Assembly: GCF_002934605.1 (NCBI RefSeq) | Contig: NZ_PTJC01000007.1 | Span: forward strand, 124,001-188,000 | Reading direction: 5' to 3' | Source of the DNA: Neolewinella xylanilytica | GTDB taxonomy: Bacteria > Bacteroidota > Bacteroidia > Chitinophagales > Saprospiraceae | Length of the DNA stretch: 64,000 nt | Shown: positions 3,175 through 5,672 of the stretch, piece after piece | How the letters are laid out: the number at the start of each line of letters is the position of its first letter | Position numbering within the stretch: position 1 is the first letter of the stretch | The notes under the pieces: generated by a model | What the model saw: only the letters and a program-made list of their open reading frames with translations | Told to the model about the DNA's origin: nothing | Database searches by the model: none | Translations under genes and position numbers: made by a program

Positions 3175-3786
3175 ATGAAGATAGAAAGGAACAACCTAAG
3201 CGACCTCGCCTTCGCCAAAAATAACGGCCTCATCCCCGCCATAGTGCAGGATAACACGACCCGCGTGGTGCTCATGCAGGGCTACATGAACGCCGAAGCG
3301 CTTCGCCACACCCTCGAAACCGGAACGGTCACCTTTTACAGCCGGAGCAAGCAGCGGCTGTGGACGAAGGGGGAAACGTCCGGCAATGTCCTCACCCTCG
3401 TGCGTGTCGATGCGGACTGCGACCGCGATTCCCTCCTCATTCAGGCTACGCCCGCCGGCCCCGTTTGCCACACCGGCGCCGATACCTGCTGGGACCAGGA
3501 GAACCGCGGGGAATTCCTCGACCATCTGGAGCGCACCATTCAGGACCGCCGCGACAATCCCGACGAAAACAGCTACACCACGTCGCTGCTGCAGCGGGGG
3601 ATCAACAAAGTAGCCCAGAAGGTAGGCGAAGAAGCCGTGGAACTGGTCATCGAAGCCAAGGACAACGACAAAAACCTCTTCCTCAACGAGGCGGCCGACC
3701 TGATGTATCACTACCTCGTGCTGCTCGCTGCGAAGGGCTACACCTTGGAGGAAGTGCGGGAAGTGCTCCGCGAACGACATAAATAG
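3175..3786 (+). CDS. hisI: Bifunctional phosphoribosyl-AMP cyclohydrolase / phosphoribosyl-ATP pyrophosphatase HisIE
   Basis: 203 residues with two fused enzymes of steps 2 and 3 of histidine synthesis. The N-terminal cyclohydrolase domain (about 1-112) shows [11 protein letters not shown], the metal-binding [10 protein letters not shown] and the zinc Cys pair in CHTGADTC. The C-terminal pyrophosphatase domain (about 115-203) shows [22 protein letters not shown] and the helix with [14 protein letters not shown]. Domain order and length are normal for the fused form. It follows hisF with one opposite-strand gene between them, so the two are probably not one transcript. Downstream begins an array of short hairpin units (see the 3787-3956 entry). 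Confidence 0.97.
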
Positions 3787-3956
3787 GGCGCCGGAGCGCA
3801 GGAGGAAAAACGGCGCAACCAAACGGAGGTGTCGCGGCGTTACCCTCTAACCCGCGGCCGCGGGCCCGTTTATTGACCCGGAAGCGAAGCAAACGGATTC
3901 TCTACCTGTGGCAGCGCCGCATCTAACCAGGGCCGCAGGCCCGTCTAACTTTTTAC
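3787..3956. repeat. Intergenic array of short hairpin units upstream of the yqeY-like gene
   Basis: A non-coding stretch made of short units, most ending in TCTA or a close variant. Seen directly: the 15-mer GGCGCCGGAGCGCAG (3787-3801), found again at 54353 and, inverted, at 13638; a unit with CCGCGGCCGCGGG near 3852-3864; a unit with GGAAGCGAAGCAAACGG ending in TCTCTA; a unit with GGCAGCGCCGC; and a perfect 5-bp hairpin GGGCC-GCA-GGCCC (3930-3942) followed by GTCTA. The last unit ends about 10 nt before the yqeY ATG. A second array follows that gene. The function is unknown. Confidence 0.7.
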
Positions 3957-3958
3957 CC

Positions 3959-4411
3959 ATGTCTTTACAAGACCGCATTACCCCTGACCTGAAAGACGCC
4001 ATGCGCGCCAAAGACCAGGCCGCCCTCCGCGGAATCCGGGCCATCAAGAATGCCATCCTGCTGCAGAAAACCGACGGCAGCGGCACGGAACTGGACGAAG
4101 CCGGCGAGATCGCCCTGCTGCAGAAGCTTGTCAAAAGCCGGCAGGAAAGCATTACCATTTACGAAGAGCAGGGACGGGAAGACCTGGCCGCTCCCGAGCG
4201 CGAGGAAGTCGAGGTGATCAGCCGCTACCTTCCCGAGCAGTTGTCAGACGAAAAGCTCGAATCCATCGTTCAGGAAGTGATCGCCGAAACCGGTGCCACA
4301 TCCATGCGCGATATGGGTCGGGTCATGGGCCAGGCCAACGCCCGCGTGGCCGGTCGCGCCGACGGTAAGCAGGTAGCCGACACGGTTAAACGCCTCCTAA
4401 CCCAGGCCTAA
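3959..4411 (+). CDS. GatB/YqeY domain protein
   Basis: 150 residues, close to the family's usual 147-150. The ATG at 3959 gives the typical start MSLQDRITPDLKDAMRAKD; the frame is open upstream only through the hairpin array. It carries the family's AMRAKDQAALRGIRAIKNAI segment, the RQESITIYEEQGREDLA segment and C-terminal GRVMGQANARVAGRADGKQV. The YqeY family is related to the tail domain of the GatB amidotransferase subunit and is proposed to bind tRNA or assist tRNA-dependent amidation; its exact role is not settled. It is flanked on both sides by arrays of short hairpin repeats, so it is probably transcribed on its own or with the following permease gene. Confidence 0.9.
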   Translation: MSLQDRITPDLKDAMRAKDQAALRGIRAIKNAILLQKTDGSGTELDEAGEIALLQKLVKSRQESITIYEEQGREDLAAPEREEVEVISRYLPEQLSDEKLESIVQEVIAETGATSMRDMGRVMGQANARVAGRADGKQVADTVKRLLTQA

Positions 4412-4423
4412 CGACTACCCGCT

Positions 4424-4563
4424 ACCGAGGTCCGCAGGCCCGTCTACCGAGATCCGTGAGCGCAGCGACCGGATCGTCTACCAGGGCCGCAGGCCCGTCT
4501 ACCGGTCGGCGAGCGAAGCAAGCAGCCCTCTAAAGTCCGGGAGCGAAGCGACCGGATTCTCTA
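4424..4563. repeat. Second array of hairpin units between the yqeY-like gene and the permease gene
   Basis: Five consecutive units, each ending in TCTA: GGTCC-GCA-GGCCC (about 4429-4441); GATCCG...CGGATC around the core GAGCGCAGCGA (4451-4475); a perfect GGGCC-GCA-GGCCC (4484-4496); a unit with core GAGCGAAGCAAGC; and TCCGG-GAGCGAAGCGA-CCGGA (4536-4556). Loops are either GCA or an 11-13 nt core containing GCGNAGC, a heptamer known to form a very stable DNA mini-hairpin. The last TCTA lies 3 nt before the next ATG. Stems change in sequence but keep their pairing. Confidence 0.75.
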
Positions 4564-4565
4564 AA

Positions 4566-5672
4566 ATGGCCACCAGGCCACGCATGAAAAAACTGGATTG
4601 GTACATCGTCGGTAAGTTCCTCCGCACCTTCTTCTTCGTGGTGCTGATCTTTTCGATGGTGAGCATGATCGTCGATTTCAGCGAGAAGGTCGAACGCTTC
4701 ATCGAGTCGGACATTACGAAGCAGGTCATCATCCTGGAGTATTTCCCCACCTTCCTACTCTTTATCCTGGGGTTTTTGTGGCCGATGCTTACCCTGATCG
4801 CCGTCATTTTCTTTACGGGGCGGATGGCGGACAATTCCGAGATCATCAGCATCCTCAACGCCGGCGTAAGCTTTTGGCGGCTGATGCGGCCCTACCTCAT
4901 CTCCTCCGGCTTCCTTTTTCTGCTTTACTTGGGCGGGGTTCACTTCGCCGTTCCCCTGGCTAACGCCCACCGGGCGGAGCTCGAACGGGTGTACTTCAAC
5001 CGCGGCCGCGACGAAGGGAAGACTACCAACGTGCACTTCTTCGTAGCCCCGGATACGAAGGTGTACATGACGCACTACAACAAGCGCGACAGCGCCGCCC
5101 GCAACTTCCGGATCGAACACATCGTGGATAACGAGTTGGTCAGCCTCACCAAAGCCCGCACGGCGCGCTTCGTAACCGGGGATCCCGACGTCTGGCGATT
5201 GGACAATTACGAAACCCGCACCTTCGACGGGCTGGAAGAAACCCTCGAAGTGGGCCAACGCACGACGCTCGACACCGTGCTGAACCTGCGGCCCGAAGAT
5301 TTCGTCGAATACCGGGAGCAGCAATCCTCGCTCACCACCCCCGAGCTCATTAGTCAGCTGCGCAGTCAGCAGGAACGCGGGGCCGGCAACATCCGCAAGT
5401 ACCAGGTCGAGCTCGCCCGTCGGTCGGCCGAACCCTTCACCATTTTCATTCTTACGCTTATTGGCCTCTCCGTGGCGGGGCGCAAGTCGCGTGGCGGTAT
5501 GGGCGTCCAGCTGGCCATCGGCATTTTCATGGGAGCCCTGTTTGTTTTCCTGAGCCGTTTCGCTTCCACCATCACTTCGAGCGCCAGCCTGCCGGTGTGG
5601 CTCGGCATGTGGATGCCGAATATCCTGTTCTTCGCCGCCGCCATGTATTTCGTATCGAAAGCCCAACGTTGA
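4566..5672 (+). CDS. LptF/LptG (YjgP/YjgQ) family permease
   Basis: 368 residues. Members are the transmembrane subunits of the LptBFG ABC exporter that extracts lipopolysaccharide from the inner membrane. Seen here: a first helix after MKKLDWYIVGKFLRTFFF, two helices around residues 55-85 and 95-130 (with GRMADNSEIISILNAGVSFWRLMRP, the cytoplasmic coupling region), a periplasmic domain (about 135-290) and three C-terminal helices with EPFTIFILTLIGLSVAGR. The ATG at 4566 is used; an ATG six codons later (4584) gives MKKLDWY and is equally possible. The N-terminus abuts the hairpin array. Whether it is the LptF or LptG member cannot be told without its paralogue. Confidence 0.88.
   Translation: MATRPRMKKLDWYIVGKFLRTFFFVVLIFSMVSMIVDFSEKVERFIESDITKQVIILEYFPTFLLFILGFLWPMLTLIAVIFFTGRMADNSEIISILNAGVSFWRLMRPYLISSGFLFLLYLGGVHFAVPLANAHRAELERVYFNRGRDEGKTTNVHFFVAPDTKVYMTHYNKRDSAARNFRIEHIVDNELVSLTKARTARFVTGDPDVWRLDNYETRTFDGLEETLEVGQRTTLDTVLNLRPEDFVEYREQQSSLTTPELISQLRSQQERGAGNIRKYQVELARRSAEPFTIFILTLIGLSVAGRKSRGGMGVQLAIGIFMGALFVFLSRFASTITSSASLPVWLGMWMPNILFFAAAMYFVSKAQR

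Follow-up and report, generated by a model that had tools for sequence, protein, structure and literature searches.

Head-to-tail arrays of TCTA-tagged hairpin units around yqeY in Neolewinella xylanilytica, likely REP-like elements of the GTAG kind

The window, that is, the whole stretch of 64,000 nucleotides from Neolewinella xylanilytica analysed here, includes neighbouring genes to which Pfam assigns hisIE domains, YqeY and LptF_LptG (an lptF/lptG-type gene). The hisIE-yqeY gap (gap 1, 3787-3958) and the yqeY-lptF/G gap (gap 2, 4412-4565) together hold nine TCTA-ended units, with four copies of the tetramer in the former and five in the latter (Table 1). Two unit designs alternate in one orientation, head-to-tail and abutting without spacer. 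Design A is short (about 21 nt) and reads stem-GNA-stem'-GTCTA, as in CCA-GGGCC-GCA-GGCCC-G-TCTA. Design B is longer (about 30 nt), its outer stem enclosing RAGCGNAGCRA, i.e., GC-GNA-GC with purine-rich mismatches on either side, and in many arrays an extra pyrimidine lies directly 3' of the B core. A first-pass annotation of this DNA had described hairpin arrays in both gaps with TCTA ends and two cores, which our analysis confirms, the cores being as described. Its statement that stems pair within units holds for most of them, the exceptions being one mismatch at 4429-4441 (GGTCC/GGCCC) and the broken stem of the gap-1 B unit (3877-3904), where pairing is partial (2.5 net pairs). By the pairing rule used, no hairpin lies immediately 5' of the opening TCTA in gap 1 (3846-3849); the final one of that gap ends 11 nt before the yqeY ATG (3959), and that of gap 2 ends 2 nt before the next ATG (4566).

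Table 1. Features of the two gaps around yqeY (window positions) and loci of the source genome matched by the dimer model R1 (contig positions; n, number of matches)
Feature	Position	Strand	Basis
Conserved motif GCAACC-N17-CGTT, promoter-like, upstream of yqeY	3815..3841	+	14/20 yqeY loci
Variant unit, hairpin CCCGC-GGCC-GCGGG (3851-3864, GTTTA after) then CCCGTTTA	3851..3872	+	sequence, stem listing
B unit, core AAGCGAAGCAA at 3882-3892, outer stem partly broken, TCTA 3901-3904	3877..3904	+	
Short hairpin unit GTGGC-AGC-GCCGC then ATCTA; loop AGC, one T-G pair	3905..3925	+	
A unit CCA-GGGCC-GCA-GGCCC-G-TCTA	3927..3947	+	
yqeY gene, between both arrays	3959..4411	+	Pfam PF09424
A unit, stem GGTCC/GGCCC (one mismatch), loop GCA	4425..4446	+	
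B unit, core GAGCGCAGCGA at 4458-4468, stem GATCCG (4451-4456) and CGGATC (4470-4475)	4447..4480	+	
A unit CCA-GGGCC-GCA-GGCCC-G-TCTA	4481..4501	+	
B unit, core GAGCGAAGCAA at 4511-4521	4502..4532	+	
B unit, core GAGCGAAGCGA at 4541-4551, stem TCCGG (4536-4540) and CCGGA (4552-4556)	4533..4563	+	
R1 locus, n=4	C1:2028.6k		
R1 locus, n=1	C2:144.2k		
R1 locus, n=2	C3:86.3k		
R1 locus, n=4 (the window)	C3:127.9-128.5k		
R1 locus, n=2	C3:391.2k		
R1 locus, n=1	C5:0.2k		

On the opposite strand, most units consist of GTAGA followed by a hairpin. In 26 arrays picked by eye for the tag and unit counts, the base after TCTA is C (GTAGA opposite) in 114 of 157 cases, and TCTAC is in the minority in genome G002 (5/17) and lacking in the single G005 array counted (0/4), TCTAA prevailing in both; the tag varies by species and is not always GTAG. 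A stems are typically 4-6 bp with loops of 3-4 nt, and B outer stems reach at most 8 bp. Among 32 distinct A hairpins defined by pairing alone on the TCTA strand, the loop is GNA in 22, ANA in 4, GNNA in 1 and of another kind in 5, with no TNY or TNNC loop; the strict hairpin rule gave no hairpin for 55 of 152 units. The B cores have GNA or ANA triloops, or the tetraloops GCTA, GTTA, GTCA, GACA and GGAA, but their counts are not independent of the motif because B units are recognised by the core. GNA and GNNA loops are unusually stable in DNA, and those seen here fit an earlier remark likening the B core to a stable DNA mini-hairpin. Stabilising mini-hairpin DNA is mentioned in one published abstract (PMC4686876). 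Mismatches in the A helix comprise 10 A-C versus 1 G-T array-by-column events, three of them from one array with a misaligned row, and this excess, taken at face value, would favour the GTAG strand; of nine hairpins folded as DNA, most have similar energies on either strand.

Pattern searches revealed more arrays in the source genome (G000) and in genomes G001, G002, G005, G010 and G020. A covariance model (R1), built on 26 A-B dimers and used to search 90 genomes, matched in 8 of the 21 genomes of the genus, the source genome included, and in none of 69 genomes from other genera of the family or order; since the scan scored 64 candidates per genome under strict filters, these counts are lower bounds. 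The source genome has at least 14 dimer matches at six loci, three of them weak (C5:236, C3:86296 and C3:127927; E 0.004 to 0.007). The richest of the 90 genomes, G001, has at least 34, and its contig C40 holds twelve dimers consecutively with a period of 49-50. Related units missed by R1 are visible by eye in G008, G010 and G011. In G005, near-identical A-B dimers are scattered across many contigs; GGCGAAGCCCGTCTA with at most one mismatch occurs there at 18 sites on 13 contigs, against 0 in the control. The exact A pattern yielded 16 stretches in the named genomes, one in Lewinella sp. IMCC34191; of the other 15, the one examined (L028) is a lone match without an array. Lone 13-mer matches in G003, G012, G013 and G015, as well as the site G000:C1:427765, were considered as arrays and set aside, no array being present. 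The further copies on which the first-pass annotation had made its case depend do exist elsewhere in the genome and in relatives. The hundreds it had in mind find no support: dispersed copies in such numbers were not found in the source genome by exact pattern, tetramer enrichment or R1. This is a real repeat family, with copies in the tens, not hundreds. No description of such arrays in Lewinella was found in the open-access literature, to which the search was confined.

The units sit between or beside genes. At yqeY, pyrH and lpdA they point the same way as the genes; at other loci they oppose a neighbouring gene. Of 66 TCTA chains, some of which are not unit arrays, 12 end in a tag that supplies the TAG stop of a convergent frame at least 200 codons long, compared with 24 of 923 for all TCTA in the same regions (those 12 included). 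For the 22 of 24 R1 matches examined in G005, with frames taken at 150 codons, the corresponding figures are 4/22 versus 12/353. The yqeY-lptF/G gene order is found in nine species, with TCTA units in the gap in five and absent in four. ECF-type sigma promoters follow the pattern AAC ... CGT, and a motif that looks like one, GCAACC/T-N17-CGTT, precedes the gene at 14 of 20 yqeY loci in the genus (L227-L246; 0.05 expected per locus), its spacer always 17 nt in a search that allowed 16-18. The gap-1 units sit between this motif and the yqeY ATG. The distance from motif to ATG is 117 nt in G000 and 114 nt in G001, where units intervene, versus 27-45 nt at the other 12 loci, so that the yqeY leader is about 85 nt longer where units are present; the gap-1 units probably lie within that leader.

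The outer stems vary from array to array and remain paired inside each one. Paired with the 3' arm of the same unit, the 5' arm of a B unit has a mean net score of 3.80 (44 units), compared with 1.51 for arms from other arrays (1810 pairings), and none of 2000 permutations over 23 arrays reached this advantage. In the dimer alignment (A1), in which the B stems without the extra pyrimidine and one A row are misregistered, 8 of 12 pairs show changes in both partners, a count reached by 3 of 500 shuffles, and the covariation score is 0.199; shuffles give 0.095 ± 0.014 (none of 500 as high) and slid versions at most 0.157. Within arrays stem identity is 0.84; it is 0.49 for different arrays of a single genome and 0.70 for orthologous arrays. 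The first and last of these values lean mainly on the abc array (66 of 99 within-array pairs and 48 of 57 orthologous pairs). The third unit of the orthologous yqeY-lptF/G gap, for instance, has GGGCC/GGCCC, ACGCC/GGCGT and GGGGCC/GGTCCC in three species. The suggestion of selection on structure, or of a copy-and-drift process, gains support from these covarying stems together with the further copies. Orthologous stems without covariation, named at the outset as evidence against it, were looked for, and an objection on that ground fails because the stems change but stay paired.

We then turn to the Y1 transposases, of which 33 loci of the genus were tested, namely those with a locus sequence from listings of 37 rows and 3. 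Of these, 12 have two or more small hairpins with CTAC after them, versus 44 of 600 control windows. Taken together, the Y1 loci show no enrichment of B cores (4/33 versus 50/600 controls), and R1 gave only weak matches there (best E 0.04), with no match at L277-L282. The three Y1_Tnp loci of the source genome have hairpins of other families around them, in some cases CTAC-tagged; none has hairpins matching the units, which counts against a role for Y1 enzymes. Five Y1 loci of other species have hairpins similar, not identical, to those of the window. L119 (G001), IS200-like and over the NCBIfam cut-off, has alternating A hairpins (GCCT-GGA-AGGC-ACGTCTACC) and B-like ones (AGCAAAGCGA) on either side; one strand holds five GTCTACC and six cores within 6 kb, and at least four such tags occur in 0 of 264 control windows. 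L136 (G002), RAYT-like with E 1.5e-19, below the curated cut-off, has eight element copies, each GACGC-ATA-GCGTC-TCTACC plus a B core, with the A hairpin and B core on opposite strands, a further point against the Y1 reading. L118 (G014) shows GGGCC-GGA-GGCCC-GTCTCC and L124 (G005) GGGCC-GGA-GGTCC-GTCTCT, the L118 and L119 proteins being 45% identical, and at L123 (G010) hairpins of the form GGACC-GGA-GGTCC lie on either side, one with TCTACC.

Several side observations concern these regions. The G010 arrays (L104-L108) have the boundary GCTACTTTG(AAGTCAA), in inverted pairs at four of five loci and as a single copy at the fifth, and two copies of it adjoin the RAYT-like gene of L123; G010 possibly harbours a larger element with terminal inverted repeats carrying hairpins. 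In the source genome, L003 (G000:C1:1077289-1080492) is a RAYT-like gene inside a long tandem array with a period of about 107, whose hairpins GACGGC-TGAA-GCCGTC-GCTAC and GTCCAC-TGAA-GTGGAC-GCTAC have opposite orientations. About a dozen tandem 25-bp repeats (TACGCTTGTTGCTGTACCCCAGGAC) precede the IS200-like Y1 gene of L117 (G005:C10, about 1150-1420), and a short run of N, an assembly gap or masked bases, interrupts the repeat array left of the Y1 gene of L130 (G005:C5) at about 1175-1210. Between convergent genes at G020:C50 156700-157150 (L115) lies a long perfect hairpin, GAGACCCGATTTGC-TTCT-GCAAATCGGGTCTC, possibly a two-way terminator, with an outward-facing unit array on each side; a similar divergent pair of arrays is found at G001:C40:172.1-172.5k.

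Among named repeats, the account of GTAG-tagged REPs (Di Nocera 2013, PMC3733652) describes features that these units recall: an unpaired tag of the GTAG type at the base of a short palindrome, a short tail at the far end (CCA here), an extragenic and clustered location, tags that supply TAG stops to genes, and Y1 transposases nearby in some genomes. The REP traits of a 5-13 bp stem with a loop of 2-20, and of intergenic location with TAG stops, are found in the units here, which also lie in either orientation and, at a given site, are present in some species and absent from others. REP dimers, by contrast, are described there as mostly inverted (HH or TT), most genomes having few or no head-to-tail ones, whereas in the window both unit types abut head-to-tail; a few divergent array pairs occur in G001 and G020. 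Array-specific stems are a further difference. Membership in the GTAG REPs is incomplete: the tag is species-variable, the order head-to-tail, the copy number modest (tens), and the source genome shows no cognate partner enzyme with the same hairpins beside it. The earlier view that no named element has this form is accordingly half right, as the other strand has the GTAG-REP layout of that source and the arrangement is not inverted. Two other candidates were rejected. CGTC-tagged REPs have stems of 8-9 bp beginning with A-T pairs and loops of 4-5, whereas the stems here are shorter and GC-rich with 3-nt loops; CGTC is present in many unit junctions. The sequence GTCTAAC resembles the core of integron attC, but most units read TCTACC and cassettes are absent.

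The GI-GIII arrays of P. fluorescens SBW25 (Bertels and Rainey 2011, PMC3116915) likewise have two REP types alternating in ordered tandem; the REPs there are 112 and 72 bp apart, in contrast to the lack of spacer here, and the units here have a common tag, not common stems. Among TnpA-REP systems (Corneloup 2021, PMC8266576), bulged E. coli-type REPs resemble B, and the S. maltophilia REPs, a perfect stem with a 3-nt loop, resemble A. Dependence on single strands and a tag is described there and proposed here; both types share one array here, unlike in those species, and the sequences are unrelated. RAYT-like proteins of the genus carry Y(V/I)xNNP or similar, and the L119, L121 and L124 proteins have Y-x3-Q-x2-HH, as in Y1 subclass 1.2 (Quentin 2018, PMC6006769), an assignment made by motif. 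This subclass is characterised in that source as generally without terminal secondary structures, whereas L118 and L119 sit amid tandem tagged hairpins and L124 between inverted ones. A bolder proposal, which we hold only tentatively and think rather doubtful, is a new REP-like class, in which IS200-like Y1 transposases, regarded as lacking terminal structures, would drive a two-hairpin head-to-tail unit (perfect GNA plus bulged GCGNAGC); such an enzyme would move and re-copy whole single-stranded units, arrays would turn over as blocks and every stem would stay foldable.

Other explanations have to be weighed against a transposase-spread family. Single motifs in the window are weak against chance: GAGCGNAGCGA with at most one mismatch has 11 matches versus 6.85 expected (8 of 100 shuffles reach 11), and GCAGGCCCGTCTA with at most two has 5 versus 2.17 (6 of 100 reach 5). 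Hairpin-then-TCTA lies outside the top 12 enriched tetramers in each of four 400-kb pieces. Same-strand TCTA chains beat all tetramer permutations tested only in the G001 piece (8, 7 and 6 units versus at most 5), ATTC or ATCT chains equalling or exceeding them in the other pieces, and the C2 piece of the source genome has no TCTA chain of at least four. These figures would suit a chance likeness among GC-rich intergenic stretches, an idea that is nevertheless scarcely credible. Exact GGNCCGCAGGCCCGTCTA occurs at four sites in the genome, three in the yqeY gaps and one at C2:144300, a second array, and because it falls only in arrays the clustering is not chance; R1 matches reach E of about 1e-12 and are genus-restricted, the arm-pairing and covariation tests both beat their controls, and arrays exist at orthologous sites. 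Matches outside the window already refute it.

Elements working at the RNA level, whose transcript hairpins would guard mRNA ends, terminate transcription or tune the next gene under selection for RNA folding, would explain the placement in or beside intergenic gaps and the probable position of the gap-1 units in the yqeY leader, and covariation by itself fits RNA as well as DNA. We consider them improbable: in the hisIE-yqeY gap the units follow the gene direction in G000 and G001 but oppose it in G002, and they are missing from the same operon gap in related species. GNRA tetraloops are favoured in RNA, yet four of the five B tetraloops (GCTA, GTTA, GTCA and GACA) are not of this type. T-tract terminators number 1 site versus 1.2 expected over 3700-4700, and the covariance models of Rfam 15 gave no match up to E 1 over 3200-5200; a transcript-end signal, entertained in the first-pass annotation, finds no backing in that terminator count or in units that run with or against genes. 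Local tandem repetition alone, with slippage and palindrome template switching making and correcting hairpins in situ without a transposase, would account for stem identity being highest within arrays and for the orthologous arrays retained by sister species. It also seems unlikely, since the near-identical dimers of G005 are scattered, not local, unrelated loci have tag, core and A/B order in common, and Y1 genes are flanked by similar hairpins.

We therefore judge it likely that these hairpins are REP-like, of the GTAG kind, that Y1 transposases have spread them and that homogenisation acts within each array. The proposal of a mobile mini-element is supported to this extent by the further copies, the covarying stems and the presence or absence of units at the same site. 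The short palindromes would fold as single-stranded DNA with the unpaired tag at the hairpin foot (TCTAC, GTAGA opposite), and a Y1 (HUH) single-strand-DNA transposase may recognise the folded strand and move the units. Arrays could subsequently grow by slippage or reinsertion, so each would evolve as a block, and stems would stay paired because only foldable units get copied. The arrays of the source genome may now be passively inherited, given that no matching transposase was found.

These findings add one more bacterial genus with REP-like repeats, in which stems are replaced wholesale between arrays and between orthologous sites with pairing kept. They offer a natural experiment on how a single-strand DNA transposase would read its substrate, the tag, loop and bulge being constant and the stem sequence free, and hint at possible REP-type partners for IS200-like Y1 enzymes that lack classical ends. 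For the genus itself, the units account for some gene ends and spacers.
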